From the IMG/VR virus record IMGVR_UViG_3300025853_000351, positions 1-32,822 of that record: 32,822 nt of DNA; one strand, 5' to 3'. The position numbers and the translations under genes were made by a program. The stretch is from a virus. The first letter of the stretch is position 1. Each line of letters starts with the position of its first letter. Below are positions 17,663-32,822 of this stretch, one piece after another. Below the pieces are notes generated by a model, which was not told the origin of the DNA, made no database searches, and saw only the letters and a program-made list of their open reading frames with translations.

Positions 17663-17690
17663 TTGACGTTAAAAGTCATATGAATATAAT
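17663..17690 (+). promoter_or_regulatory. Rightward early promoter of the ardA cluster with operator in the spacer
   Basis: TTGACG (17663-17668), a 16-bp spacer and a perfect TATAAT (17685-17690) form a strong sigma70-type promoter about 50 bp upstream of ATG 17739. The 15-bp dyad TGACGTTAAAAGTCA (17664-17678) overlaps the -35 and spacer, so a bound repressor would block polymerase. Confidence 0.75.
17664..17678. promoter_or_regulatory. Operator copy 1 (TGACGTTAAAAGTCA)
   Basis: A 15-bp near-perfect dyad centred on base 17671; half-sites TGACGTT and AAAGTCA. It matches four other copies in the window (21421, 21461, 22326, 26276). Its position inside the ardA promoter indicates repression. 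Confidence 0.7.
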
Positions 17691-17738
17691 GAATCATGTT
17701 AGGTCAATTATGGCCGCTTTTAAAAAGGATATAACAAA

Positions 17739-18278
17739 ATGACACAAGCACAATTAAAACAAGCTGAAACTTTAACACTATACGCCCAGCCATATGACTT
17801 AGATGCACAAGGCTTTTACTTTGATAGCTTTGAAGATTATCAATCTAAGTATAATAAAAACTTCAATGTTTATGGTCAACCAGTTGAAGAATATATGTTT
17901 GATTTTATTGATGGCTCTGCAATAGATTGTGATCTATTCAAAGCCGTTAAAGGTGGTTACAACTTAAAAGCTTTTTTTATGGTTGCCAACGAATGGGAAG
18001 AATATCAAAAGATCCCATTAATCATAGCCTATGAAGAAAACATCACATCTGAGCCATTTAATGAAGAAGTAACGCCAGATCTGTTTGAAGATATAGATAT
18101 TTATTATGATATGTCTTTTGAAGATTTAGCATGGCAATTTATAGAAGAAGGCTTGTTTGGTGAAATACCAAAACATTTAGAAAACTATCTTGATATTCAA
18201 TTAATGGCTAGAGATTTGAGCTTTGATTATAATGAGATTTCAGTTGGTAACAATTCAATAATTTATAGGAGTATGTAA
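17739..18278 (+). CDS. ardA: ArdA-like antirestriction protein
   Basis: A 179-residue, strongly acidic protein. The N-terminal part has YAQPYDLDAQGFYFDSFEDYQSKY, then PVEEYMFDFIDG. The C-terminal domain has SFEDLAWQFIEEGLFGEIPKHLENYLDIQLMARDL, the ArdA-type ending of an acidic helix, PxxLxxYLDxxxMARDL and a final strand. ArdA proteins mimic bent B-form DNA and inhibit type I restriction enzymes, protecting incoming phage DNA. Length is close to the usual 165-180. It is the first gene of the plus-strand early cluster, behind a strong promoter covered by a repressor operator. Start follows AAAAAGGATAT. Confidence 0.85.
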   Translation: MTQAQLKQAETLTLYAQPYDLDAQGFYFDSFEDYQSKYNKNFNVYGQPVEEYMFDFIDGSAIDCDLFKAVKGGYNLKAFFMVANEWEEYQKIPLIIAYEENITSEPFNEEVTPDLFEDIDIYYDMSFEDLAWQFIEEGLFGEIPKHLENYLDIQLMARDLSFDYNEISVGNNSIIYRSM

Positions 18279-18279
18279 A

Positions 18280-18588
18280 ATGACTAAGAAAATTAAACTA
18301 TATGGCGTTAAATTAAATGTTACTTTAGCCATGGACACTAACCTTGAAATTGAAGCTGAAACAGAACAAGAAGCCATTAAAAAGTTTCAAGCTATTAGAG
18401 ATAATCATAACGCTGAAATAGACAAAGCCATATCAACGGATTCACTTCATAAGCTTGTTGAAGAATATAGAAACTATATGTATTTTGATTCAAGCTTTTC
18501 TGAAACTGAATTTAGTGAGGATAATGTTGAATTAATAGAGAGGATGAAGAATGACAAATGCAATGCTACTATGGCTTTTGTTTCATAA
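18280..18588 (+). CDS. Small early acidic protein, unknown
   Basis: A 102-residue protein starting 1 bp after the ardA stop, so coupled to it. It begins with basic residues and a beta strand (KIKLYGVKLNVTLAMD), then has TNLEIEAETEQEAIKKFQ and several acidic helices. The strand plus EAETEQEAIxKF pattern is common in small phage early proteins of unknown role. Net charge is negative. Possible host-takeover or antirestriction helper; no family can be named. Confidence 0.65.
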   Translation: MTKKIKLYGVKLNVTLAMDTNLEIEAETEQEAIKKFQAIRDNHNAEIDKAISTDSLHKLVEEYRNYMYFDSSFSETEFSEDNVELIERMKNDKCNATMAFVS

Positions 18589-18670
18589 TGCAAGTGAATC
18601 AGATTTAAAAGCCTACAACGTAACACAAAAAGAAATAAATAGTTGGTTAGCTCAATTCTTTTCTAATTAA
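18551..18670 (+). CDS. Possible 39-residue overlapping early gene
   Basis: ATG 18551 opens a 39-residue frame (MTNAMLLWLLFHNASESDL...SWLAQFFSN) ending TAA at 18670. It overlaps the end of the upstream gene in another frame, and GAGAGGATGAAG lies 7-10 nt before the start. The N-terminus is hydrophobic, and an amphipathic helix follows. It ends just before the strong hairpin at 18681. Evidence is limited to start signal and position, so this may be chance. Confidence 0.35.
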   Translation: MTNAMLLWLLFHNASESDLKAYNVTQKEINSWLAQFFSN

Positions 18671-18680
18671 TTATATTACT

Positions 18681-18713
18681 CTTGTAAGGCAGTTTTATTG
18701 ACTGCCTTGCGAG
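18681..18713 (+). terminator. Strong 13-bp hairpin without T-run
   Basis: CTTGTAAGGCAGT (18681-18693) pairs with ACTGCCTTGCGAG (18701-18713) over a 7-nt loop, with two G-U pairs. No U-tract follows, so it may be a weak terminator, processing site or mRNA stabiliser between the ardA group and the next small genes. Confidence 0.5.
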
Positions 18714-18732
18714 AGCTATATAAGCTCAATCT

Positions 18733-18752
18733 TGGCCACTTATGGCCACTTA
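18733..18752. repeat. Tandem 10-bp repeat TGGCCACTTA
   Basis: Two exact head-to-tail copies (18733-18742, 18743-18752) lie just upstream of the ribosome site of the gene at 18768. A related TATGGCCGCTTTT stands before ardA (17709-17721). It could be a leader element of early transcripts or a protein site. Confidence 0.5.
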
Positions 18753-18767
18753 TAGAAAGGTTAAACT

Positions 18768-18953
18768 ATGAACACAGATAACATTATTTCAACTTTGCTA
18801 ATATACAAGCAAAGAAAAGATTTTAAAAATTCAAATGATTGGCATATTCAAGACTTACTTTTAGATCTGCAAAATTTTTGTATTGAGTATGGGATTGATT
18901 TTAATTACGAGCTTGAACAAGCAAAATCTTTATATCTGGAGAAAAGACAATGA
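18768..18953 (+). CDS. Small early protein, unknown
   Basis: A 61-residue, mostly helical protein (MNTDNIISTLLIYKQRKDFKN...HIQDLLLDLQNFCIEYGIDF). GAAAGG lies about 10 nt before the ATG. The stop overlaps the next start by 4 bp, which supports real coupled translation. No family recognised. It is one of a run of four tiny early genes under the same regulation. Confidence 0.55.
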   Translation: MNTDNIISTLLIYKQRKDFKNSNDWHIQDLLLDLQNFCIEYGIDFNYELEQAKSLYLEKRQ

Positions 18954-19132
18954 ATGAACCTAAGAACAATTATGAAGCTTATAAACTAGCTTTAAAGCTT
19001 GCTATAACAGCTGACACAGAAGACAAAGCTAATGATTGTGTAACTATGGCTACACAAATAGAAACAAGCTTAACAGAACTTGAAATTGCTAGAGCTAAAA
19101 AAGAAGCACTTTTTGAAATAGAAAATGAATAA
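18950..19132 (+). CDS. Small early helical protein, unknown
   Basis: A 60-residue, Ala/Glu/Lys/Thr-rich helical protein with NYEAYKLALKLAITADTEDKANDCV followed by a likely coiled coil (TSLTELEIARAKKEALFEIE). The ribosome site GGAGAAAAG lies 6 nt before ATG 18950. It overlaps both neighbours. Similar short helical proteins are common in phage early regions; function unknown. Confidence 0.6.
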   Translation: MNEPKNNYEAYKLALKLAITADTEDKANDCVTMATQIETSLTELEIARAKKEALFEIENE

Positions 19133-19310
19133 AACAGAATTTAGAGAAGCCAGACGAAAGCTTGGCTTCTCACAAAAGCAGTTAGCGACTTTACTAAAAG
19201 TCGCATCCGATAGGACAGTCAGACGTTGGGAGGCAGGTGAAAAAGATATTCCCGGTCCCGTTGTTGTGCTTATGAATTGGCTACTATCCAACAATAAACC
19301 AAAGCTATAA
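19125..19310 (+). CDS. Small helix-turn-helix DNA-binding protein
   Basis: A 61-residue protein of the Xre/HTH_3 type: FREARRKLGFSQKQLATLLKVASDRTVRRWEAGEKDIPGPVVVLMNWLL. The QKQLATLLKVASDRTVRRWEAG segment (about residues 17-38) gives the helix-turn-helix with the usual WE-G end. It overlaps the upstream gene by 8 bp. It may act as a second Cro-like regulator of the early cluster or of the late switch. It has no toxin partner, so an antitoxin role is less likely. Confidence 0.8.
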   Translation: MNKTEFREARRKLGFSQKQLATLLKVASDRTVRRWEAGEKDIPGPVVVLMNWLLSNNKPKL

Positions 19311-19343
19311 AAGCAGTAAGCAACTTTTTAAAAAGGATATGTT

Positions 19344-19655
19344 ATGAAATATAAAGTAATTATCGATGTTGAAGTTGATGAAAAAGATGCTGAATTATGG
19401 TTTTGGGAATGTGCAATGGAATATATAGCAGAAGATGTAAATCATGGCGATAAATCACAGCAAGACGTTACTAGTTATAGAAAGTTTGCAGATATCAAAG
19501 AAAATTATGAAGCTACTATGATGAATGATCTTAATGAAGGTTTAGACAATTTTTTTCGTAATGCTGGTATAAAAAATCCAAAAGCATATTTGCATAGAAT
19601 GAACAAAAATAAGTTTGAAAAATCTTATAAAATTACAATCGATAATACAATCTAA
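19344..19655 (+). CDS. Small early protein, unknown
   Basis: A 103-residue protein starting with two strands (MKYKVIIDVEVDEKDAELWFWECAMEYIAEDV), then charged helices and a Lys-rich end. Its leader CTTTTTAAAAAGGATAT repeats that of ardA (17717-17732), which suggests a shared ribosome-site design. The end overlaps tail-to-tail by 23 bp with the minus-strand gene at 19633, so the two transcription units converge here without an obvious terminator. No family recognised. Confidence 0.6.
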   Translation: MKYKVIIDVEVDEKDAELWFWECAMEYIAEDVNHGDKSQQDVTSYRKFADIKENYEATMMNDLNEGLDNFFRNAGIKNPKAYLHRMNKNKFEKSYKITIDNTI

Positions 19656-20016
19656 CCAAAGCATCTTTATATCTACGCTTCACAATCCTAGGATCATTTA
19701 GTCCTAGGATTTTTGCTATCTTAGTCCATTTAGGACCACGATCAGTAAATGCAGCTGAGTGAGCTACCGCCCAGGTAAGCCTTCTATCCTCGTCATCCAT
19801 CTTAGTTAACGCCAGGTCTATAGCTTTATCTAACCTAGTAATCTGGTCTGGTGTAGCTTTTAACCTAGTTGGTTCTGTTGTGCTGTAACCATAACCAGAC
19901 CACTCAGTCACATAATCTGGCCAACTAGCCATCTTCTGCTTTCTAAAAGCAGTAGGCAACTTTCTCTCAGTTTCGGCAGCTTCAAAGAATAAATCATTTA
20001 ACTGCGCTACATCCAT
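19633..20016 (-). CDS. DUF6362-like protein
   Basis: A 127-residue protein. The order of features (an N-terminal helix with AAETERKLPTAFRKQKMASWPDYV, the middle RLDKAIDLALTKMDDEDRRLTWAVAHSAAF, then KIAKILGLNDPRIVKRRYKDALVRLYYRL) matches the DUF6362 type found in phages and prophages of alphaproteobacteria. The end looks like a helix-turn-helix of the sigma-like or transcription-activator kind, so DNA binding or late activation is possible. Its ATG overlaps the upstream stop (TAATG). It is the last gene of the leftward Cro-side operon, a place where a late regulator could be. The family name is from memory. Confidence 0.65.
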   Translation of the reverse strand: MDVAQLNDLFFEAAETERKLPTAFRKQKMASWPDYVTEWSGYGYSTTEPTRLKATPDQITRLDKAIDLALTKMDDEDRRLTWAVAHSAAFTDRGPKWTKIAKILGLNDPRIVKRRYKDALVRLYYRL

Positions 20017-20393
20017 TACTTGCGCTCTTTTCTAAGCTTGTCATCCATGTCTCTAAGCCAGTTAAGTTTATCAAACATGGATATATGCTCCAGGTTAATC
20101 ACCAAATCCTTGTAAGCATCTTCTGAATATCTTTTTCTAAGCTTAGATAAAACACGCCTTTGCAGCTCATCAATGGGAAACTTGGCGCTTCTTTCAACTA
20201 CAGCTACATATGCTGGATTAGATTTCTTTGCTGTTATCTTAGCTAAGCTCTTTATCTTAGCTAAGTTATTATTCTTAGCTAAGCTATCTAAGTTATTTTT
20301 TTTATTTAAGGAATTAATTGGATTGCTAAGCTTAGCGCTAAGCTTAGCTACATGACTTGGCTTAGAAAAAATTTTACTATCATCGTGATTCAT
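20016..20393 (-). CDS. Basic protein carrying DNA iterons; possible replication initiator
   Basis: A 125-residue, very basic protein. Residues about 10-60 are low complexity with repeated LAK units (AKLSAKLS; SLAKNN, NLAKIK, SLAKIT with 6-residue period). The C-terminal half is a folded helical region (FPIDELQRRVLSKLRKRYSEDAYKDLVINLEHISMFDKLNWLRDMDDKLRKERK). The repeated codons form 18-bp iterons in the DNA, as lambda gene O carries its own origin. I see no helicase or primase motif. It may be an origin-binding protein, but the repeat could be simple low-complexity coding. It overlaps the upstream gene by 14 bp. Confidence 0.55.
   Translation of the reverse strand: MNHDDSKIFSKPSHVAKLSAKLSNPINSLNKKNNLDSLAKNNNLAKIKSLAKITAKKSNPAYVAVVERSAKFPIDELQRRVLSKLRKRYSEDAYKDLVINLEHISMFDKLNWLRDMDDKLRKERK
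20238..20348. repeat. Iteron and palindrome cluster; candidate replication origin
   Basis: Three copies of the palindrome CTTAGCTAAG start at 20238, 20256 and 20274, exactly 18 bp apart. Two adjoining copies of the palindrome GCTAAGCTTAGC fill 20325-20348. Between them lies a very AT-rich segment (20284-20324). Iterons next to an AT-rich stretch inside a gene resemble the lambda origin in gene O. Function inferred. Confidence 0.55.
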
Positions 20394-20664
20394 CTGTCAA
20401 CCCCCCATGAATAAAAAAATAATTTCCACCATCTAAATTGTGGTCTGAGTTGGCTTCGCCGCAGTCCATCCTAGCTAATTTATTTTCAATATGAAACTTA
20501 ACAGCATCACTGGCATAAAACTTTTCACCTGGTTTTAATTTATTTTTAAAACTTAAATTTAATCTAGCTGCTAAATTTTCATATAACTCCTGGTAATCAC
20601 CAAGCTTGTCAGCTCTATCTTTTAATATTTGTGCAGCTGTTTCTGCATACTGATGAGGATTCAT
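20380..20664 (-). CDS. DUF6378-like phage protein
   Basis: A 94-residue protein with YAETAAQILKDRADKLGDYQELYENLAARLN, then SDAVKFHIENKLARMDCGEANSDHNLDGGNYFFI. The layout, helix with A--IL--R---YGDY, later a helix with K-ARM, then an Asp-rich end with D--GY-like, resembles the DUF6378 group (small phage metabolic or nucleotide-associated proteins). The ATG overlaps the upstream stop by 4 bp. The usual acidic residues are present, but the reaction is not known. Confidence in the family is moderate. Confidence 0.55.
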   Translation of the reverse strand: MNPHQYAETAAQILKDRADKLGDYQELYENLAARLNLSFKNKLKPGEKFYASDAVKFHIENKLARMDCGEANSDHNLDGGNYFFIHGGLTDESR

Positions 20665-20822
20665 TTAATGATCCTATCAAAATGATCTACTTTTAATTCC
20701 TGGGCCTTCCAAGCTGCTTTTTCAGCTGCTAACTCTTGCTGTGTTAATGGCCTTGCCTTTTTCATTAATGCTTTGCAAATTTGTGATACTGGATTTGCAC
20801 CAGTTTTATTGGAATGACCCAT
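20661..20822 (-). CDS. 53-residue basic helical protein
   Basis: ATG 20822 directly follows the stop of the VRR-NUC gene (TAGATG), and the TGA at 20661-20663 overlaps the next ATG. The ribosome site GAGGGGAAAA lies about 4-10 nt before the start. The protein reads MGHSNKTGANPVSQICKALM then KKARPLTQQELAAEKAAWKA and ends DHFDRIIK. It is basic at the front with one long helix. The perfect tiling between two genes supports it as real. No family recognised. Confidence 0.65.
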   Translation of the reverse strand: MGHSNKTGANPVSQICKALMKKARPLTQQELAAEKAAWKAQELKVDHFDRIIK

Positions 20823-21212
20823 CTATTTTCCCCTCAGTTTAATTAATCCCTCTAAAAATTCTTGTACCTGGTCAACAGATCTACACAGCTGCCAGATACC
20901 GCCAGCTTCTTCAAGTTTGTCTCTTATAACTATCTGATTGGCAGTTGCTTTACCCTTGCTGCCTTTAACCTCAATAAATATTGATAACGATGCTCCGCAC
21001 AAAGTCTGATCGCCAGGCACAAATATTTCTATGTCTGGCCAGCCAGCTTTTGTTCCCATACGTTTTTGCTTAACTTTAAACGCTACATGACGATTACCTT
21101 CATTCGGTGAATGATGCCAAACTGATCCAGGAGGTAACATAATATCTAACCATCTTGCGATTCGCAGATGAACTATATCTTCCGAATCAATTTCTGCGGA
21201 TAATGAAGTCAT
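20823..21212 (-). CDS. VRR-NUC domain nuclease
   Basis: A 129-residue protein of the VRR-NUC (PD-(D/E)XK) type. Active-site pattern: Glu38 in SPNEG, Asp60 in KAGWPDIEIF, Glu81 and Lys83 in IFIEVKGSKGKAT, and Gln93 in the following helix. Stand-alone phage VRR-NUC proteins are thought to act as structure-specific nucleases such as Holliday-junction resolvases, fitting a role in recombination or concatemer processing. ATG 21212 lies 26 bp inside the Cro-like gene, in another frame. It is in the Cro-side operon, not beside the exonuclease and annealing genes. Confidence 0.88.
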   Translation of the reverse strand: MTSLSAEIDSEDIVHLRIARWLDIMLPPGSVWHHSPNEGNRHVAFKVKQKRMGTKAGWPDIEIFVPGDQTLCGASLSIFIEVKGSKGKATANQIVIRDKLEEAGGIWQLCRSVDQVQEFLEGLIKLRGK

Positions 21213-21399
21213 TTGGCGTAACCGATCCCATTGTTACCTCTAAAATTAAACTTAAATGTTTGGGACTTGGCGTAAGTGCTTGATTATGCTGCTTTGGTAA
21301 ACACCATCTACGAGCTACAGTCGCTTCTTTAAACCCAAGTTTTTCAGCTAATTTTTTGTAACTTAAATTATTTTCTAATCTATATTCTTCTAATGTCAT
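21187..21399 (-). CDS. Cro-like helix-turn-helix regulator
   Basis: A 70-residue protein: MTLEEYRLENNLSYKKLAEKLGFKEATVARRWCLPK has the N-terminal helix-turn-helix (LSYKKLAEKLGFKEATVARR, about residues 12-31), followed by SPKHLSLILEVTMG, a typical XRE-family helix end. It is divergent from the repressor gene with a 208-bp control region that holds two operator copies. That layout is the lambda-like cI/cro switch. It is the first gene of a leftward operon with six more genes, so it probably lowers repressor or early transcription in lytic growth. Confidence 0.75.
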   Translation of the reverse strand: MTLEEYRLENNLSYKKLAEKLGFKEATVARRWCLPKQHNQALTPSPKHLSLILEVTMGSVTPNDFIIRRN

Positions 21400-21420
21400 G
21401 TCTTTAGAAGTAACATAAAG

Positions 21421-21435
21421 TGATTTTAAACGTCA
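21421..21435. promoter_or_regulatory. Operator copy 2 (TGATTTTAAACGTCA)
   Basis: A 15-bp dyad with half-sites TGATTTT and AACGTCA, 22 bp upstream of the Cro-like ATG. It would overlap the start of the leftward transcript. Partner of the copy at 21461 in the divergent region. Confidence 0.65.
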
Positions 21436-21442
21436 ATACCCT

Positions 21443-21471
21443 ATTTATATTTGACAATAATGACGTATGAA
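21443..21471 (-). promoter_or_regulatory. Possible leftward promoter of the Cro-like operon
   Basis: On the minus strand TTCATA (21471-21466), a 17-bp spacer and TATAAA (21448-21443). The -35 is weak, and operator copy 3 covers it; operator copy 2 lies at the expected transcript start. Other pairings are possible, so this is tentative. Confidence 0.35.
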
Positions 21472-21479
21472 GTCATACT
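21451..21479 (+). promoter_or_regulatory. Rightward promoter of the repressor gene
   Basis: Perfect TTGACA (21451-21456), a 17-bp spacer and CATACT (21474-21479). Operator copy 3 (21461-21475) lies in the spacer and touches the -10, which suggests autoregulation of the repressor. The transcript leader to ATG 21608 would be about 120 nt. Confidence 0.55.
21461..21475. promoter_or_regulatory. Operator copy 3 (TGACGTATGAAGTCA)
   Basis: A 15-bp dyad with conserved TGACGT and AAGTCA ends and a variant centre. It sits between the Cro-like and repressor genes, 25 bp from copy 2, in the spacer of the putative repressor promoter. Confidence 0.68.
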
Positions 21480-21607
21480 GCAAGACATAAATCACAACCA
21501 ACTATACTTTATACATCATATTGTGTGTGTTTTTATTTTGGCCACAAAATGTTGTAGCAAGCTTGTTGATACAAATAATAGTTGGAATAAAAACAAAAAG
21601 GAATATT

Positions 21608-22315
21608 ATGTCTGTACTCAAATTTAAAAATAAATTCAAAACAACAGATGTACTTATGCCTAATAATCTTGATGCAATGATAAGAAGATCTGGTCTTTTA
21701 AATAAAGAAGTTGCTGAACGTAAAGGTATTCGACCAGAAACAGTATCAAGACATATTAGCGGTGCATTACAATTTACACTGAAAGATGCTGAAGAATATG
21801 CAATAATCCTTGGCTGCACTGCCCAGGATGTTTTGTTTGTGCAGCAGCCTACTTATGTTTTCGGTTATTTAGATAACAGTGTTGTCAATGTCATAACACC
21901 AGCTGAGAAACAAAAAGCTTTTTTCTTGCCCTTTCCTACCAACGAGACTAGAAAAATTGTTATTTCAAGACATACAGAACAATCAAAAAAATGGGCAAAT
22001 TATAGAATGTATATGTTTGATTCTGCGCCTATAAACAAAAGTGAGGTCGATCCTAATGCTTATATGACACTAAGCATATACATGGTTGATGGCCAAACAA
22101 AACCACAGTTTGGCGTTATTTATCCAGAACCAGGCGGCACATTTTCAGTTACTTCTAATGCTGATTCGCATACACAAAGTAATCATGGAGTTGTAACTGG
22201 CGTTGTAGGCGAGCCAGTTAACAAAACCTCTGGTCTTAACTTTAAATGGGCGTGTCCTATTATAAGCTGCATACTAAGATCAGACTTAATTAATGTTGTA
22301 GAAAAAAAGTTTTAG
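21608..22315 (+). CDS. Phage repressor (CI-type, HTH N-terminus)
   Basis: I choose ATG 21608 (235 residues) because AAAAAGGAATATT precedes it; the longer frame lacks a ribosome site. Residues about 21-70 form a helix-turn-helix: NNLDAMIRRSGLLNKEVAERKGIRPETVSRHISGALQFTLKDAEEYAIILG. The C-terminal domain is beta-rich (YRMYMFDS, YMTLSIYMVDGQ, FGVIYPEPGGTFSV, GVVTGVVGEPV), similar in outline to LexA/CI S24 domains. I do not see a clear Ala-Gly cleavage site or Ser-Lys pair, so RecA-driven self-cleavage is doubtful. It probably binds the five 15-bp dyads and maintains lysogeny. Confidence 0.75.
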   Translation: MSVLKFKNKFKTTDVLMPNNLDAMIRRSGLLNKEVAERKGIRPETVSRHISGALQFTLKDAEEYAIILGCTAQDVLFVQQPTYVFGYLDNSVVNVITPAEKQKAFFLPFPTNETRKIVISRHTEQSKKWANYRMYMFDSAPINKSEVDPNAYMTLSIYMVDGQTKPQFGVIYPEPGGTFSVTSNADSHTQSNHGVVTGVVGEPVNKTSGLNFKWACPIISCILRSDLINVVEKKF

Positions 22316-22324
22316 TCAACCCTC

Positions 22325-22354
22325 TTGACTTTATAAATCAAGCTATAATAGGAT
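22325..22354 (+). promoter_or_regulatory. Promoter of the recombination genes with operator copy 5
   Basis: TTGACT (22325-22330) overlaps the dyad TGACTTTATAAATCA (22326-22340). The best-spaced -10 is TAGGAT (22349-22354, 18-bp spacer); a perfect TATAAT at 22344-22349 is only 13 bp away from this -35. The exonuclease ATG is 22380, behind AGGAG. Weaker operator match (15 bp, ATCA end). Confidence 0.5.
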
Positions 22355-22379
22355 CTTCTAATTCAATTTAGGAGATCTT

Positions 22380-23327
22380 ATGTCATTTATAGAAACACCA
22401 AGATACGCTTCACGATTTAATTATCTTTGGCACTCGAATCCTAAAAGCAAACTTAAATGTAAAGCTTTATTTGACAAGATTCATCTTAGACCAATGGTAT
22501 CTGATGCCTGGGATATTTATCAGAATTTAAATAATGAAAAACATATTAGAGATAGAGCTTGGATTACTATTGAAAAGTTTGATTCAAAGCTAAATGGTCA
22601 AGATAATGCAGCTATGGCTGGTGGCCGTACAGTGCAAGAAGCAGCTGATTCTATACTGATTGATAACATAGATCCTGGAGAAGCTATTGAGGAAGCCATA
22701 CAAACCTATAATAAGTTCAAAGCACGAACTTGGGATGATGGAACAGATGCTAACAAAAAAATTAAGTATGTTGATGAAATAGAAGCAGTCACTAAAAACG
22801 CTGTTGCTGGCCTACAAGAAGCCATGCAAAAAGATAATCAGATTGTTGGTGAAATAGAATACATAAAAAACTTAGCTGGCTGTGAGCTGCCACATAATAC
22901 CAGACCAGATTACAATAGGCGTGGAGATCTAAAAACTAAATGGTCCAGGATTAGCAAAACCTCAAAGTCTGGTTTTGCAGCTGCAAGCTTACCTAAAAGT
23001 TTAACTGGTCCTTTTGAGCAAGCAGCCTTGTACCAGGTAGCTGGTTTCTGGGCGTGTAATGGCGGCCTACCACCCTTCTTAGTTTATGCAAATGCTTCAG
23101 ACTACAAAATATTTGACCAGGATAATACACCAGAACTACAAGATGATTACTTAGCCGATATAGTACAAACAATCGCTAGATCACATAAAGCTACTGAAGA
23201 ACTACTAAAGGTAGCACAAGATAAAGATCATCTATTTAAATTAATTGAACCAGACTTCACAAATATTTGCTGGTCTGAACCACCAGTAATAATAAAAGAA
23301 GCTAAAAAACTATGGGGGATCAAGTGA
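22380..23327 (+). CDS. PD-(D/E)XK exonuclease (RecB/YqaJ-like)
   Basis: A 315-residue protein. Helix GGRTVQEAADSILI (81-94), then GEIEY (157-161) supplies an acidic residue. GDLKTKW has the (D/E)XK core Asp183 and Lys185. FEQAALYQVAGFW (212-224) is the QxxxY helix of RecB-type and lambda-exonuclease-type nucleases. It is likely a 5'-3' double-strand exonuclease that makes single-strand tails for the annealing protein encoded three genes later. ATG 22380 follows AGGAGATCTT. It ends in the 4-bp overlap GTGA with a small membrane gene. Confidence 0.8.
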   Translation: MSFIETPRYASRFNYLWHSNPKSKLKCKALFDKIHLRPMVSDAWDIYQNLNNEKHIRDRAWITIEKFDSKLNGQDNAAMAGGRTVQEAADSILIDNIDPGEAIEEAIQTYNKFKARTWDDGTDANKKIKYVDEIEAVTKNAVAGLQEAMQKDNQIVGEIEYIKNLAGCELPHNTRPDYNRRGDLKTKWSRISKTSKSGFAAASLPKSLTGPFEQAALYQVAGFWACNGGLPPFLVYANASDYKIFDQDNTPELQDDYLADIVQTIARSHKATEELLKVAQDKDHLFKLIEPDFTNICWSEPPVIIKEAKKLWGIK

Positions 23328-23434
23328 AAGATCCCTGGTTATGGATAAGTGAGTTTTTTGGCGCTGTTTTTTTGTTCGCATTTTTTTATTTTTTAATTTG
23401 GATTTTAGCCATTTTATTTCCAGGAGCTATGTAG
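23324..23434 (+). CDS. 36-residue membrane protein, GTG start
   Basis: GTG 23324 overlaps the exonuclease stop (GTGA). GGGGGAT lies 3-9 nt upstream. The product starts KDPWLWISEFF; residues about 10-33 form one long Phe/Ile/Leu-rich transmembrane helix (FGAVFLFAFFYFLIWILAIL). It ends at TAG 23432-23434, right before the next ATG. The frame fills the gap exactly, which supports it as a real gene. Single-pass peptides of this kind can act as superinfection exclusion, holin-like or anti-defence proteins; the role is unknown. Confidence 0.65.
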   Translation: MKDPWLWISEFFGAVFLFAFFYFLIWILAILFPGAM

Positions 23435-23770
23435 ATGATAGATATATTAGAAACACCACCAAACATCCATAAAAACGCTAGGGAGACTGAACAATTAGCT
23501 TTGGAGTTTATCTTGCCAAGGATTAAAAAACTTCGCTTGGCAGTTTTAAAATCAGTTGCAAGTGCTGGATGGACTAAAGGCAAAACCGGATCTGAAATTG
23601 TAGATGATATTGATGGCTACATTGTATCTGTAAGGCCCAGGCTAACTGAGCTGCATGAGTATGGATTGATAACACCAGGCGATAAAAGAAAGAACGCTAG
23701 AGGATCATATGAGTTGTCCTGGTTAATTACAAGTAAAGGTAAACAAGTTGCGGAGATGAATGATGAGTGA
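23435..23770 (+). CDS. Winged-helix-like DNA-binding protein
   Basis: A 111-residue protein. Helices LALEFILPRIKKLRLAVLKSVASAGWTKGKTGSEIVDDIDGYIVSVRPRLTELHEYGLITPG are followed by a beta-hairpin (KRKNARGSYELSWLITSKGK). This is the MarR/winged-helix order: helix, recognition helix with RPRLTELHEYGLI, wing with a Gly turn. It follows the membrane gene without gap and overlaps the annealing gene by 11 bp. It may regulate the recombination operon or load replication factors. Not assigned to a named family. Confidence 0.65.
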   Translation: MIDILETPPNIHKNARETEQLALEFILPRIKKLRLAVLKSVASAGWTKGKTGSEIVDDIDGYIVSVRPRLTELHEYGLITPGDKRKNARGSYELSWLITSKGKQVAEMNDE

Positions 23771-24428
23771 ACTAAAAGATGTAATGGCTGCGGTCAATGA
23801 CATAAATCAATTACATGGCGTTACACAAAAAGGCGGCAAAAAATACACAGAAGTTTCTAAAAGAGTAGAAGCTTTTAGAACACATTTTGGACTGAAATAT
23901 GGAATTACAACAAATATAATAGTTGATGATGGGATAAGAGTTTTAATCAAAGCGCAAGTCTATGACTTATCAAATACTGAAATTGCAGTTGGCGAGGGAT
24001 ATGCTGAAGAATTAAGAGGTGTAGGACATTTTGCAAAAGGCGATAAACGAAATGTTAATACTGGCGCTGCTATAGAAAACTGTGAAACATCTGCAATAGG
24101 TAGAGCATTAGCAAGCCTTGGTTTGCATGGTGGTCAATATGCCTCAGTTGATGAAATTCAAAAGGTTAATAGAAATAATGAAATTATAGAAGAAAAACAG
24201 ACTAAAACAGATGATGAAATTAAAGACAAAAATAATGACCAAGAAAAATGGCAAAAAATAACTGAAAATTATTTACGAAATATTGATGAGATGAAGTCAC
24301 AAAGTATGTGTATGCACTGGTTTAACAATAACAAAGATGTTCTTAAAAATATGAAAGCAATAGTTCCAAGAATGTATGGAGAAATCGAGGAACATTATCA
24401 AAAAAAACTTAATTCACTACAACAATAG
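23760..24428 (+). CDS. Single-strand annealing recombinase (ERF/Rad52-like)
   Basis: A 222-residue protein. The core has YTEVSKRVEAFRTHFGLKYGITTNII, then VLIKAQVYD, and the diagnostic NTGAAIENCETSAIGRALASLGLHGGQYASVDE (about residues 97-130), the motif I associate with ERF/Rad52-type annealing proteins of marine phages. The C-terminal 80 residues are a charged linker and helix tail. It would anneal single strands made by the exonuclease encoded upstream, supporting recombination-dependent replication. Two start codons are tandem (23760 and 23763). Confidence 0.78.
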   Translation: MMSELKDVMAAVNDINQLHGVTQKGGKKYTEVSKRVEAFRTHFGLKYGITTNIIVDDGIRVLIKAQVYDLSNTEIAVGEGYAEELRGVGHFAKGDKRNVNTGAAIENCETSAIGRALASLGLHGGQYASVDEIQKVNRNNEIIEEKQTKTDDEIKDKNNDQEKWQKITENYLRNIDEMKSQSMCMHWFNNNKDVLKNMKAIVPRMYGEIEEHYQKKLNSLQQ

Positions 24429-24436
24429 GAGCTACT

Positions 24437-24781
24437 ATGGGAAACTCACCACAATTTTCTAATACTAATATAAAATTTCAAAGACCAGTATCATCTTCAG
24501 ATGACAATATTGGGCAAAAAATCAAAGTAAGTGTTTGGTTAAACTTTGATAATGGCTGGGATGAAGAGGCAAAAAGACCTTACCCACCTACAGCAGAACA
24601 GCAAAAAAGTATTGAAGATATACATAGACAAATAAAAAATCTTGGCATGGAGCTTTCTTTGCAGCTGCAAGAATTTGATAGCAAAATGAATATAGCTAGA
24701 GCTAGAGCATTTTGTAATGATTTAAGATATGAAACAAACCAAGTAAATGAAGGAGTAGTTAATGGTTTTGACGATTTATAA
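24437..24781 (+). CDS. Recombination-operon protein, unknown
   Basis: A 114-residue protein: an N-terminal polar loop, strand KIKVSVWLNFDNGWDEEAKRPYPPT, then helices (AEQQKSIEDIHRQIKNLGMELSLQLQEFDSKMNIARARAFCNDLRYE). The ribosome site AGGAGCTACT precedes ATG 24437. It lies between the annealing and excisionase-like genes and overlaps the latter by 20 bp. An accessory role in recombination or in integrase control is possible; no family recognised. Confidence 0.55.
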   Translation: MGNSPQFSNTNIKFQRPVSSSDDNIGQKIKVSVWLNFDNGWDEEAKRPYPPTAEQQKSIEDIHRQIKNLGMELSLQLQEFDSKMNIARARAFCNDLRYETNQVNEGVVNGFDDL

Positions 24782-25022
24782 TAAAGCTTTGTTTAATCTT
24801 ATTGAAACAACACAAATATTATTTGGGCCATGTAAGCGTAAAGCATCTGAGTATGCTAGAGTTACTAGGATGGTAAAAGATGGATCTATTAATAGTATAA
24901 CAGATCGTGGCAGATACTATGTGACAAGAAAAACATTAGAAGATTTTATGGGATCTGAAGAATCTTTAAATAAAGCTCTGCAAAACTTAGACAATGTTGT
25001 AGAGCTTTATCCAGATAATTAA
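24762..25022 (+). CDS. Excisionase-like winged-helix protein
   Basis: An 86-residue protein with KRKASEYARVTRMVKDGSINSITDRGRYYVTRKTLEDFM (about 26-64), the MerR/excisionase-type winged helix: helix, RMVKDGSI turn, wing with GRYYV, and a helix of the TLEDF kind. The ribosome site AAGGAG is 6 nt before ATG. It faces the integrase tail-to-tail with a 4-bp overlap (25019-25022). This placement and the fold make a recombination directionality factor the best call. A simple transcription regulator is also possible. Confidence 0.68.
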   Translation: MVLTIYNKALFNLIETTQILFGPCKRKASEYARVTRMVKDGSINSITDRGRYYVTRKTLEDFMGSEESLNKALQNLDNVVELYPDN

Positions 25023-26236
25023 AAGTTGATTTGAGCCATATCGTTTTGCAGCTTTTGCTTTCTTGCTAAGTCTTGCATCCAATGACCATAAGTTCTTTGT
25101 GTAATAGCAATGTCACTATGGCCCATAAGATTTGATACAGTCCAAACATCATTGCCATAAAACTCTAGCATCTTACTTGCATAGTAATGCCTTAGATCAT
25201 GCCAGGTTAAGTTCTTATTACTAAGCTGCCTAACAACTTTTTGCAGCTGTTCACGCCAGGTAGATGGATTAACCATAGTATTATACTTAGTACCAAACAC
25301 TAAATGTGTTTGAGCTGGTCTGCCTTGCTTTATGTAAAGCTCTTGCAGCTCCCTCATTAAAGTATTTTTAATTGGTACAGTTCTATTAGATGTCCTGGTT
25401 TTAACTCTACCTACACCGCCCTCTACTTTAATCTTTGCAGCTTTGTTAACTGTGACCTCAAACATTTTAAAATCTATATCTTCCCAGGTCAAAGCTCTTT
25501 GCTCACCAGCTCTTAATCCAGTTGAACAAGCAAACTTATATGCTAGGACAACAGACTTAGGCAAAAGCTTTTCTATATCATGTATGAAATCTGTAGATAA
25601 CTTTTCCTTTTGCGGCTTGTTCTCCAGGTCATCATTGAAAGGTCTTTCAATAACAATATCAGACATAGGATTTTCTCTAATGCAGCCACAAACTTTAGCG
25701 TGTTTCATAAGTTTGTTAAACATAGATCTCATAGCAACCAAAGTCTTGTAACTTCTCTTACCTTTTTTACCAGAGTTTTCTAATGCTGGGATGATGTAGG
25801 TTTTACAATGTTGTGCAGTAAGGTCGCTTACTTTTAAATCAGCAACAGTGGTCATACCAATTTTTATTTCTAAAAAACTTTCAAAAACTTTTTTATATGA
25901 ATCAAAGTATTGCGGAAGTGGCTTGCCTTTTTTCATCCTGGTATATTCTTCCCAGTAAAAATGTCTGAGTGGATCATTATCTTTTATACGCTGATCCCAT
26001 TCAACTCTCATTTCTTTATCTGGAAATGGACCAAGTAAATCTTTGATAGTCCAAGTATAACTTTCTTGTAAATGTTTGTAGTGCAAATCTTTCATTTTAC
26101 TAAGCTCTAACTCAGCTGCTTTTTTAGTCCAAAAGTATTTTCTTTTTCCACCAATACTTCTTAGATCTAAAACAAAACTAGCAGAACCAATTTTCTTTTT
26201 ATTAGAATCTTGTGAAATTTGTTTTCTTTGCATCAT
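25019..26236 (-). CDS. int: Tyrosine integrase
   Basis: I choose ATG 26236 (405 residues), since GAGGTGAC precedes it; the longer frame would start at GTG 26245 without a ribosome site. Catalytic set: Arg242 (STGLRAGEQRALTWEDI), Lys279 (VKTRTSNRTVP), His346-Arg349 (WHDLRHYYAS), His373 (LMGHSDI) and Tyr383 (TQRTYGHW). Residues 10-60 look like an arm-binding domain, and 95-190 like the core-binding helices (SAM-like). It integrates phage DNA into the host, probably at the tRNA 3' end carried in attP just upstream. Operator copy 4 overlaps its promoter region. Confidence 0.95.
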   Translation of the reverse strand: MMQRKQISQDSNKKKIGSASFVLDLRSIGGKRKYFWTKKAAELELSKMKDLHYKHLQESYTWTIKDLLGPFPDKEMRVEWDQRIKDNDPLRHFYWEEYTRMKKGKPLPQYFDSYKKVFESFLEIKIGMTTVADLKVSDLTAQHCKTYIIPALENSGKKGKRSYKTLVAMRSMFNKLMKHAKVCGCIRENPMSDIVIERPFNDDLENKPQKEKLSTDFIHDIEKLLPKSVVLAYKFACSTGLRAGEQRALTWEDIDFKMFEVTVNKAAKIKVEGGVGRVKTRTSNRTVPIKNTLMRELQELYIKQGRPAQTHLVFGTKYNTMVNPSTWREQLQKVVRQLSNKNLTWHDLRHYYASKMLEFYGNDVWTVSNLMGHSDIAITQRTYGHWMQDLARKQKLQNDMAQINF

Positions 26237-26275
26237 ATTAGTCACCTCATAGTTATATTATAAATATGAGAGCGT

Positions 26276-26290
26276 TGACCTTAAAAGTCA
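26276..26290. promoter_or_regulatory. Operator copy 4 (TGACCTTAAAAGTCA) at the integrase promoter
   Basis: A 15-bp dyad, 40 bp upstream of int. On the minus strand TTGACT overlaps it, and a 17-bp spaced CATATT could be the -10, so bound repressor would silence integrase in the lysogen. Confidence 0.68.
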
Positions 26291-26394
26291 AGTGAATTGA
26301 CAAAATAGTGACAAAAATTCTCGTAACCATTTGTCACCAAAATGTCACCATAGAAACAGACAACTAAAAAAACTCAACAAAATCAAGGGAATAA

Positions 26395-26424
26395 GTGGTG
26401 ATCCCTACGAGATTCGAATCGGTG
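26395..26424 (-). other. attP: attP core: 3' end of a host tRNA gene
   Basis: On the minus strand the block reads ...CGATTCGAATCTCGTAGGGATCACCA, with a T-loop TTCGAAT, 3' T-stem, acceptor strand AGGGATC, discriminator A and CCA. The 5' half of the T-stem does not pair well, and no 5' acceptor GATCCCT occurs upstream, so this is only the 3' part. It is a typical core for tyrosine integrases that target tRNA genes and restore the tRNA after insertion. tRNA identity not determinable here. Confidence 0.75.
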
Positions 26425-26470
26425 ATTTACTGCATCTATGATTAACTCATCTTCGCTAATCAAAGCTCAC

Positions 26471-26496
26471 CTTATCTTTGTATAATACAAGATAAG
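26471..26496. repeat. Dyad in attP arm
   Basis: CTTATCTT (26471-26478) and AAGATAAG (26489-26496) pair, with GTAT/ATAC inside and one bulged T. No T-run follows. Likely a cruciform or protein site (Xis, IHF or integrase) rather than a terminator. Confidence 0.5.
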
Positions 26497-26658
26497 TTCA
26501 GTCAAGCTCAGATAGTCTAAGATGTGTCACCAAATTGTCACCAAAGTGACATTTATTCTCGTACGAGTAGATTTTGTCACCTTGTATAAATGTGGGGAAA
26601 CGTCATAATCGCATATATATTAGTGGCGATTTAAGAGTCATACAGAAGCGAAAACAAT

Positions 26659-29833: not shown

Positions 29834-31459
29834 TTAGGCTGTTTCTAATGCTACTATTCTAGCTTCTAATTCTTGTATGGTCTTCACCAGTAAAGGTACA
29901 AGTTTACTTTGGTCTATGCCTTGATAGACAGGGTCGCCATCAGCATCTACTTCATTGTGTGTGCCAGTAATTGCTTCAGGTACAACTGATTGAACTTCAT
30001 GTGCTAAGAAACCATCTACTGTAGTATCTGCATCTGTCATGAAGTTAAATCTTTTTGGTTGCAGTTGTTTTAACCTTGTTGTAGCATCTGCCATTGCAAC
30101 TACATTTTCTTTTAGTCTGTGGTCTGAGGTAGTGTTAAAATTTGTTCCACCACTTCCGTGTGTTATACTTCCTACTGGAGAATTGCCATTTTCAAATAAC
30201 AAGACTGTTGATATATTACTTGTTGATGACCTATCAAATACAATAGTTCCTGCACCAGCAGAATTATTAGGCAACATAGTTATACCACCTGCATTACCAG
30301 TAACAGTAGTACCAATCATTACATTGCCACTGCTGTCTATACGCATACGTTCTGTGTTACCACCACCACAACCGAAAACAAACCCTGATTCAGTATTGCC
30401 ACTCATGCTTATAGCTTTAATACTAGCTAAAGTTGTTCCTACTGAATTTTCAAAATTTAATTCACCAAAAGAATTACCAGTATCCGCTGTATTATTTCTT
30501 GTAAACTTCATTCGGGTTGTACCACTACCACCACTTAAATGTAATAAATTGTCAGGACTACTAGTACCAATACCAACACGACCACTGCTGTCTATTCTCA
30601 TGCGTTCTGTTAACGAACCACTAGCTGGTCTTGTCCAAAAAAGTAAATCTGCTGAATCAGTAGAAGTTGCTCGTATTGCTTGTACTCTAGCATTATTTTC
30701 AGTGCCATCATAAAAAGCAAGAATACCAAGTATTTGTGTGTTACTAGCAGTACCATTATTACCTAATTGAATAGTTGAATAATCTTGAGAACCAGTACCT
30801 TGTAAAACTAAACTTGTACGACCATCTCCAAAATCATTTAACTCTGATGTTCTGCCTATAAGAACATTGCCATCACTATTAATACGCATACGTTCTGCTG
30901 TATTAGTCAAGAAAGCTAAGTCGTTATTATTCGCCCTTACAGCCGTGTAACCAGTTGTTCCACTAGCTTCTAGTTGTATATCGCCATTAGTACCCGTGCT
31001 TTCAATATAGGCAACAGTAGTAACTCCCTTAACGTGCAAAGCATTAGCAGGACTTGCTGTGCCTATCCCCAAAGACTCAGCACTAGCATCCCAAAATAAC
31101 TTTGGTGTTGTGCCTGTGTCTTCGTAGAAGCTGATGTCTCCGTTTTCTTCAATCCTTAATCTATTTGCAGTTGTTCCTGCTTCAGCAGTTCTAAAAAATA
31201 TTTGACCATTATCTTTGTTTGTCGTGTCATCTCCAGCAGATAAATTAATTTGCGATACTACTGTACTATTCCAAGAACCTCTTATAATTCCTAATGCTTG
31301 ACTGTCACTTGTTCTATTTGCTCCAAACTCTAGTGTATGGTTACTGTTTCCACCAGTATCCATAGTCAACCCACCTGCTGTCACTGCACCTGTTACATCA
31401 AGAGTACCACTGAGGTCTGCATCAGTGACTATCTTGGATATGTCTTTTGCTCTTGTCAT
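29834..31459 (-). CDS. Tail fibre/spike with S74 self-cleaving chaperone domain
   Basis: A 541-residue fibre. It begins MTRAKDISKIVTDADLSGTL, followed by many RMRIDSSG-VGIGTSSP-type beta repeats. The last 99 residues are an intramolecular chaperone of the S74 type: TTSDHRLKENV has the catalytic Ser445 and the DxRLKxN lysine, and it ends with a coiled coil (VPLLVKTIQELEARIVALETA). Such domains trimerise the fibre and then cut themselves off. The stop of the upstream fibre overlaps its ATG (TAATG). It is a paralogue of that fibre. Confidence 0.88.
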   Translation of the reverse strand: MTRAKDISKIVTDADLSGTLDVTGAVTAGGLTMDTGGNSNHTLEFGANRTSDSQALGIIRGSWNSTVVSQINLSAGDDTTNKDNGQIFFRTAEAGTTANRLRIEENGDISFYEDTGTTPKLFWDASAESLGIGTASPANALHVKGVTTVAYIESTGTNGDIQLEASGTTGYTAVRANNNDLAFLTNTAERMRINSDGNVLIGRTSELNDFGDGRTSLVLQGTGSQDYSTIQLGNNGTASNTQILGILAFYDGTENNARVQAIRATSTDSADLLFWTRPASGSLTERMRIDSSGRVGIGTSSPDNLLHLSGGSGTTRMKFTRNNTADTGNSFGELNFENSVGTTLASIKAISMSGNTESGFVFGCGGGNTERMRIDSSGNVMIGTTVTGNAGGITMLPNNSAGAGTIVFDRSSTSNISTVLLFENGNSPVGSITHGSGGTNFNTTSDHRLKENVVAMADATTRLKQLQPKRFNFMTDADTTVDGFLAHEVQSVVPEAITGTHNEVDADGDPVYQGIDQSKLVPLLVKTIQELEARIVALETA

Positions 31460-32822
31460 TATGCGTTCTCCAATGCTACTATTCTAGCTTCTAATTCTAA
31501 TATGGTCTTGGTCAATAAAGGCACAATTTTAGATTGGTCTATACCTTGATAGACAGGGTTGCCATCAGCATCTACTTCATTATGTGTGCCACTAATTGCT
31601 TCAGGTACAACTGATTGAACTTCATGTGCTAAGAAACCATCTACTGTAGTATCTGCATCTGCTGTAAAGTTAAAACGTACTGGATTAAGTTGCTTTAGTC
31701 TAGTTGTTGCATCCCAATCTGCTGTTACATTTTCTTTTAGTCTGTAGTCTGAGGTAGTGTTATAAGATGTTCCAACACTGCTTGTAAAAATTGAACCAAC
31801 TTGAGCTGGGGTTGCATCTGTATTTCGGAAAAAAGAAGCTTGTTGTAAAGAACCAGTGCCTGTTGCACGAAACATAAAAAAGCTATTACCACCTTCCAAA
31901 GTAATAGAATTTGTGCCAGTTCTTGCAGTAGTAGTATTCAGCATCAGATGACCACTGCTGTCTATTCTCATACGTTCTGAGCCAGTATCTGTAGGGTCTG
32001 CTCCAGTTACACCTGTGCGGAACGTAATTCCTGCTGTGTCTGTAGCTAAACACAAACCTGCCGCATCAGCCGACATATAACCAGAGGCAACGCTAGTAGC
32101 AGTATACATAATTGCTGCACCAGCAACACCATCAGAACCTTCTACTTGCAATAACGCACTAGGCGAACTCGTACCAATACCAACATTACCACTGTTATCT
32201 ATACGCATACGTTCTGCATTACCACCACCTGCACCAAAGGTAATACCACCTTCAGTATTACCACTCATACTTTTACCTTTAATACCAGCCAAAACTGTAC
32301 CTGCTGAGTTTTGAAATTCTATACTTCCAAAATTATTACCAGTAGATGCAGAGTTACTTCTAGTCATCCTCATAATGGAATTGCCATCAGTAGCACTTAA
32401 ATGAATTTTAGTAGCAGGACTACTAGTACCAATACCAACATTACCACCTGCTGACATATCAATACGCATGGCTTCTATTTCAGAACCGCCATCAATACCA
32501 CTAAAAATTAAATCTTTATCTGTTTGTAAACTTAGTATTTTAACATCATTGGAAACATTTGATATTTGTAAATGACCAACACCTCCATCTCTAAATGCTA
32601 CATCCCCCCCATCAGCGTCAAGAATAATGTCTCCTGCTACATCAAGTGTTAAATCACCACTAGCATTAGCTATGTTACCTGTTACTTGTATGCCTGTTGA
32701 GGTTGTGGCGAGTTTCTGAGAGCCATTGTTATATAAGTAAACTGGTCCACCATCTTCGGCATAAATCATATTATTGCCATCGGGGTCTTCTAAAACAATA
32801 GCCGTGCTACCTTGAATAAGTA
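31459..32822 (-). CDS. Tail fibre/spike with S74 chaperone, N-terminus cut by window edge
   Basis: The frame is open from base 32822 down to TAA 31459; the first ATG (32769) is internal, because codons upstream (…ALEDPDGNN-like: IVLEDPDGNN) continue to the edge. Visible repeats: AMRIDMSAGGNVGIGTSSP, RMRIDNSGNVGIGTSSP and RMRIDSSGHLML. The end is an S74 chaperone (TTSDYRLKENV) of the same 99-residue length as in the downstream fibre, with 85 of 99 positions identical by my count. It is likely a second receptor-binding fibre produced by duplication. Confidence 0.85.
   Translation of the reverse strand, partial: LIQGSTAIVLEDPDGNNMIYAEDGGPVYLYNNGSQKLATTSTGIQVTGNIANASGDLTLDVAGDIILDADGGDVAFRDGGVGHLQISNVSNDVKILSLQTDKDLIFSGIDGGSEIEAMRIDMSAGGNVGIGTSSPATKIHLSATDGNSIMRMTRSNSASTGNNFGSIEFQNSAGTVLAGIKGKSMSGNTEGGITFGAGGGNAERMRIDNSGNVGIGTSSPSALLQVEGSDGVAGAAIMYTATSVASGYMSADAAGLCLATDTAGITFRTGVTGADPTDTGSERMRIDSSGHLMLNTTTARTGTNSITLEGGNSFFMFRATGTGSLQQASFFRNTDATPAQVGSIFTSSVGTSYNTTSDYRLKENVTADWDATTRLKQLNPVRFNFTADADTTVDGFLAHEVQSVVPEAISGTHNEVDADGNPVYQGIDQSKIVPLLTKTILELEARIVALENA

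Follow-up and report, generated by a model that had tools for sequence, protein, structure and literature searches.

Operators dispersed over a phage genome are already established. The C1 repressor of P1 has 22 such operators, which are asymmetric 17 bp sites (ATTGCTCTAATAAATTT) (PMC8546580), and the repressor of L5, a Cluster A mycobacteriophage, has more than 20 dispersed sites, which are asymmetric 13-mers found mostly outside promoters (PMC9283540, PMC6550527). In phage 186, Apl is a weak repressor of pR, and the anti-CI factor Tum inhibits CI on induction (PMC7708051). Here we analysed five copies of a symmetric 15 bp dyad, with the consensus TGAC-n7-GTCA, in the viral record IMGVR_UViG_3300025853_000351 of IMG/VR, the whole of which (32 822 nt) is referred to as the window. 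We consider it very likely that a temperate phage of SAR116 uses these dyads as true operators, and that a CI-like repressor and, very probably, a Cro-like protein act on the same dyad at early promoters. The overall plan is that of known phage immunity, with a CI-like repressor, a Cro-like protein, operators lying over promoters and dispersed sites, but its details differ from those of each described system.

As with P1 C1, one site is repeated at unlinked promoters (five in all within 8.6 kb, one for each promoter), although here the sites are symmetric 15 bp dyads rather than asymmetric 17-mers. The window shares dispersed sites of one repressor with L5, for which repressor-deletion relatives have also been listed (PMC6550527); however, L5-type stoperators are many, asymmetric, oriented with transcription and outside promoters, whereas the present sites number five, are symmetric and are all found at promoters. 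The original prediction had described such dispersal as unusual, which these precedents do not support. It had also described a scattered, single-site design unlike clustered operators, but two of the dyads, O1 and O2, form a conserved pair 40 bp apart in the divergent cro/repressor region and only the three other sites are single. This pair recalls lambda CI/Cro, in that divergent repressor and cro-like genes have two shared operators between them, each overlapping a core promoter, an arrangement seen in 21 relatives. Unlike lambda, the window has no three-site clusters of the OR/OL kind, its integrase and cargo promoters have their own operator, and there is no sign of a self-cleaving CI. 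The likeness to the CI/Apl/Tum system of 186 lies in the repressor fold, the best PDB matches being a lambda-186 hybrid and 186 CI, in the lack of any sign of a conserved S24 dyad, and in a second, small protein that binds DNA and is encoded on the lytic transcript, which in 186 is Apl. The differences are that one 15 bp dyad recurs here at five promoters, including those of the integrase and the anti-restriction cargo, and that the similarity between the repressors is too low for a sequence match.

The letters and coordinates given for the five dyads in the original prediction proved exact (Table 1). Using leave-one-out symmetric matrices, each trained on the other four sites, the held-out dyad outscored every other non-training position of the contig in all five cases. 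A matrix built from relatives only ranked the same dyads 1 to 5, with scores of 22.99, 20.25, 19.91, 19.32 and 17.84 compared to 10.99 for the sixth-best position, and 300 dinucleotide shuffles of the 32.8 kb contig produced only two positions in total scoring at least 17.84. All five dyads lie between genes, although our own gene calls leave only 9.6 % of the contig as non-coding sequence, and within the contig they are restricted to early phage promoters beside phage helix–turn–helix (HTH) genes. The case for the dyads is made from their form, promoter position and conservation, and not from the loose consensus, which is too weak as evidence: with three mismatches allowed it gave 14 matches compared to 7.2 expected, and 4 of 100 shuffles reached as high a count. 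An operator-like word inside the VRR-NUC gene was rejected as a further site. It scores 11.6–15.9 in relatives L011, L012, L022 and L025–L027 and overlaps conserved codons (H-V-x-x-K-V-K), for which coding constraint is an unproven explanation; it is found at 21088 in the window, where it is degraded, and at L011:3960 and L025:9439; the word is weak, and some relatives have a stronger version of it than the window does.

Table 1. Coordinates of the operators, promoters, genes and attachment site discussed in the text (window positions unless a locus is named)
Feature	Coordinates	Strand	Remarks
Operator O-left TGACGTTAAAAGTCA	17664..17678	.	ardA/cargo promoter; TGAC inside -35 box
Cargo (ardA) promoter TTGACG-16-TATAAT	17663..17690	+	11/12 consensus matches
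ArdA-like anti-restriction gene	17739..18278	+	First gene of exchangeable cargo slot; Pfam and PHROG matches
Cro-like 70 aa HTH protein	21187..21399	-	First gene of leftward early operon
Operator O1 TGATTTTAAACGTCA	21421..21435	.	Overlaps probable cro -35 (TTGACG, 21436-21431, minus strand)
Repressor promoter TTGACA-17-CATACT	21451..21479	+	10/12 consensus matches; O2 in spacer, touching -10
Operator O2 TGACGTATGAAGTCA	21461..21475	.	40 bp from O1; spacer of repressor promoter
CI-like repressor, 235 aa	21608..22315	+	N-terminal HTH and LexA/CI-type C-terminal fold
Operator O3 TGACTTTATAAATCA	22326..22340	.	Over promoter of rightward recombination operon
Nuclease/recombination operon promoter TTGACT-18-TAGGAT	22325..22354	+	9/12 consensus matches
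Candidate PD-(D/E)XK nuclease, 315 aa	22380..23327	+	GDLKT motif only; first gene of rightward operon
Tyrosine integrase	25019..26236	-	Pfam Phage_integrase 3.6e-23; phrog_1 1.1e-47
Integrase promoter TTGACT-17-CATATT	26263..26291	-	9/12 consensus matches
Operator O-int TGACCTTAAAAGTCA	26276..26290	.	Integrase promoter
attP core TTCGAATCTCGTAGGGATCACCA	26396..26418	-	Identical to 3' end of SAR116 tRNA-Glu(UUC)
Cargo slot examples	window 17739-18278; L006:1361-3070; L009:6215-7888; L017:2819-3004		ArdA, DpdA-like enzyme, unknown small proteins

The predicted placement of the dyads at the ardA, cro-like, repressor, nuclease and integrase promoters was borne out, with four of these promoters matching the consensus at 9–11 of 12 positions. 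Four sites (O-left, O1, O3 and O-int) overlap a TTGAC -35 box, while O2 instead fills the spacer of the repressor promoter, which has its own separate -35. Occlusion of RNA polymerase would be the simplest reading of this overlap. The product of the first rightward gene had been called an exonuclease, but it has no Pfam or PHROG match and is only a candidate PD-(D/E)XK-type nuclease.

Conservation of the sites was assessed in relatives found by searching IMG/VR with the repressor, which returned 9 loci and then 64 loci. O1, O2 and O3 occupy the same places in 21 closer repressor-bearing loci, among which O1 has four sequence variants, and O-int is present in 11 loci. The spacing between O1 and O2 is 40 bp in nearly all relatives and 41–44 bp in L014 and L029. 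Sites varied less than their flanks, at 0.067 compared to 0.208 for O1, 0.097 compared to 0.161 for O3 and 0.089 compared to 0.270 for O-int, and for O2 this was so at the key positions (0.070 compared to 0.241). The left site was examined in loci fetched by the small terminase subunit gene (terS), independently of operator and repressor, and scored with a matrix trained without left-site sequences; 43 of the 44 loci with enough sequence have an operator just upstream of terS, including those where the cargo gene differs. Relatives with 31–36 % repressor identity have other recognition helices and, near the repressor, dyads such as TGACATAATACGTCA or TGRCA half-sites. This joint change, compared by eye, is consistent with co-evolution of half-site and recognition helix. 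Conservation in dozens of relatives, together with the overlap with core promoters, supports the proposal that the five promoters form one regulon.

The repressor model (AlphaFold; predicted local distance difference test, pLDDT, 83) has an Xre/CI-type HTH and a LexA/CI-type C-terminal domain, and its best PDB matches by Foldseek were the lambda-186 hybrid repressor (1.5e-6), 186 CI (1.9e-4) and lambda CI (2.2e-4). Pfam HTH matches to the protein were weak and under the cut-off, and no relatives of it were found in GTDB genomes or in the phage collection searched. Its HTH, KGIRPETVSRHISGA, hardly varies among the relatives sharing this operator. The Ser-Lys autopeptidase dyad marks only the self-cleaving lambda/LexA subgroup of such repressors and is absent from 186 CI. 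No invariant or near-invariant Ser or Lys was found in the C-terminal domain across 33 aligned homologues, nor was there a Peptidase_S24 Pfam match in the repressor, and self-cleavage therefore appears unlikely. The Cro-like protein was modelled as a five-helix HTH (pLDDT 85); matches in the PDB were to HTH proteins, some of them Cro, but none had an E-value below 0.3. Where measurable between relatives, the ratio of non-synonymous to synonymous substitution (dN/dS) of its gene was 0.01–0.07.

From these sequence comparisons we infer a two-regulator CI/Cro switch on shared operators. The CI-like repressor, presumably as a dimer, and very probably the Cro-like protein would bind the dyad and block RNA polymerase, as every dyad coincides with part of an early promoter, either its -35 box or its spacer. 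In the lysogen, transcription from the cargo/anti-restriction promoter and of the cro operon, the recombination operon and the integrase gene would be kept silent by the repressor, which would also limit its own synthesis via O2. Upon infection or induction all five promoters would fire together, to be turned down later by the Cro-like protein. Since the C-terminal domain is without a conserved S24 catalytic dyad, induction would probably proceed via an antirepressor rather than RecA-stimulated self-cleavage, and by analogy with 186 an anti-CI factor of the Tum kind would be expected here. For temperate phages of SAR116, which are abundant marine bacteria, this charts a lysogeny switch at the level of sequence, in which anti-restriction cargo, recombination and integration would be wired to one operator. 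The features most worth following by specialists are a repressor-less lineage and the cargo slot.

In six records (L085–L090, for example L086:6443-6549 and L088:13487-13593), the repressor profile matched nothing over the whole record. Where read, their cro and nuclease genes point away from each other, separated by about 105 bp, and the Cro-like protein, 93–94 % identical to that of the window where compared, is their only HTH_3 match. Without a repressor, with the attachment core absent from the stretches searched and with an integrase alignable only from residue 61 on, these are apparently phages that gave up lysogeny. All six nevertheless keep two full dyads, at the integrase promoter and the left cargo promoter, whereas the cro and nuclease sites are imperfect (TGTATTCTAACGTCA, TGACGTTTACAGATA). 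As the full dyads are kept where the Cro-like protein is the only HTH_3 match, this protein probably uses the same operators as the repressor. The original prediction that the repressor silences antirestriction, recombination and integration together is thus not the whole story, as the integrase and cargo dyads persist alongside the Cro-like protein in relatives that have no repressor. Between L086 and L087, L088 or L090, synonymous divergence (dS) was 0.44–0.48 for the integrase, 0.51–0.60 for cro and 0.57–0.66 for the nuclease, and dN/dS was about 0.01 for cro and 0.04–0.05 for the integrase. In the nuclease tree, the repressor-less rows form one clade that includes the repressor-bearing L016 (as L083, from the same contig) and sits beside and within repressor-bearing relatives. 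Given this position, loss of the repressor, perhaps more than once or with exchange, seems the simpler reading. These relatives offer a natural experiment through which the respective roles of the CI-like and Cro-like proteins could be tested.

Several observations weigh against a two-regulator switch on shared operators. The fold matches of the repressor have low template modelling scores (TM-scores, about 0.3), which can happen with two flexibly joined domains, and a PDB sequence search with the repressor profile found no significant match and hence no sequence homology between its C-terminal domain and CI. At the cro promoter, a minus-strand TTGACG -35 lies within the dyad, but the extended -10, TACTTC, picked by eye, is weak. 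This -10 candidate ends 7 nt before the ATG (window 21399-21436, minus strand), and the cro mRNA may therefore be leaderless. Compensatory change within the dyads was no greater than independent columns would give and was not used; the evidence is therefore a conserved symmetric consensus. Moreover, the TTGAC of four sites doubles as the -35 box, so that their conservation is partly promoter conservation, leaving O2 and the GTCA half as what the -35 box does not explain. This last point, with a loose consensus barely above chance, might suggest that no regulator uses the motif, and that it extends a -35 element or arose by chance in AT-rich promoters. We regard this as the least probable of the explanations considered, as the full dyad places GTCA in the spacer, O2 lies between a separate -35 and -10, the pairing at 40 bp is conserved, and the score gap and shuffle counts given above also speak against it.

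It is also very improbable that these are sites of a host transcription factor exploited by the phage to time its early genes. Generic TGAC/GTCA dyads do resemble sites of several bacterial regulator families, and control of early phage promoters by the host is a known phenomenon, but in the contig the sites occur only at early phage promoters with phage HTH genes next to them, two of them border the divergent cro/repressor promoters in the manner of immunity operators, and in distant clades, compared by eye, the half-sites change along with the recognition helix of the phage repressor. A less remote, though still unlikely, explanation is that the CI-like repressor alone binds the dyads and the Cro-like protein acts elsewhere, with the dyads of the repressor-less relatives being leftovers, refreshed by recombination with relatives that have the repressor, or kept for a second role as promoters. 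Loss of the repressor need not be old; the place of L016 in the repressor-less nuclease clade indicates that exchange may happen, terS distances reveal mosaicism among the relatives, and D29 and MissWhite are listed among repressor-deletion relatives of L5-type phages (PMC6550527). Against this, the integrase and cargo dyads are complete in all six records despite a dS of 0.44–0.66 between repressor-less lineages, whereas in these phages the sites at cro and the nuclease gene have decayed, and purifying selection on the Cro-like gene is very strong (dN/dS about 0.01).

The gene behind the left operator varies. It encodes ArdA in the window and in L112–L117, an assignment that is modest (Pfam ArdA 25.5 bits, below the 27-bit cut-off; phrog_2059 anti-restriction, E 6.7e-7). 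In L006, L013, L024 and L032 the slot holds a DpdA-like enzyme (phrog_887, queuine tRNA-ribosyltransferase) and other small genes, in L009 an 88 aa protein followed by a DpdA-like gene, and in L017 and L025 a 61 aa protein; the repressor sequence of L006 equals that of the window, but its cargo differs. DpdA-linked 7-deazaguanine modifications shield phage DNA against restriction (PMC6884629), and the ArdA and DpdA-like cargo may therefore serve the same end. We tentatively suggest, while giving it somewhat less than even weight, that the regulator constantly using the dispersed operator set is the Cro-like protein rather than the CI-like repressor, that the repressor-less lineages are lytic and keep the regulon for timing, and that the left operator is a fixed docking point for exchangeable anti-restriction cargo such as ArdA and DpdA-like enzymes. 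If so, counter-defence genes would be exchanged through a fixed promoter slot and would join an existing repressor/Cro regulon simply by position.

The attP core adjoins the integrase and is kept in relatives. In GTDB genomes, the 3' end of tRNA-Glu has exactly this sequence, and most of the 19 matching stretches belong to SAR116 or marine Alphaproteobacteria, so that the phage very probably integrates at the SAR116 tRNA-Glu(UUC) gene. Distant clades carry a different tRNA 3' end, TTCGAGYCCCGTCAACCGCGCCA. GTGACA/TGTCAC repeats flank the core (window 26290-26570), with other repeated words in relatives; these are probably arm-type integrase sites that differ between lineages. The terminase is 50–56 % identical to those of HTVC010P-type pelagiphages. 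At the end of the leftward early operon, a DUF6362 protein (window 19633-20016) was found in every clade examined and is, by position only, a candidate late-gene activator. Two adjacent genes (29834-31459 and 31459-32769) both match the tail-fibre families phrog_18345 and phrog_9942, which suggests duplicated tail fibres.

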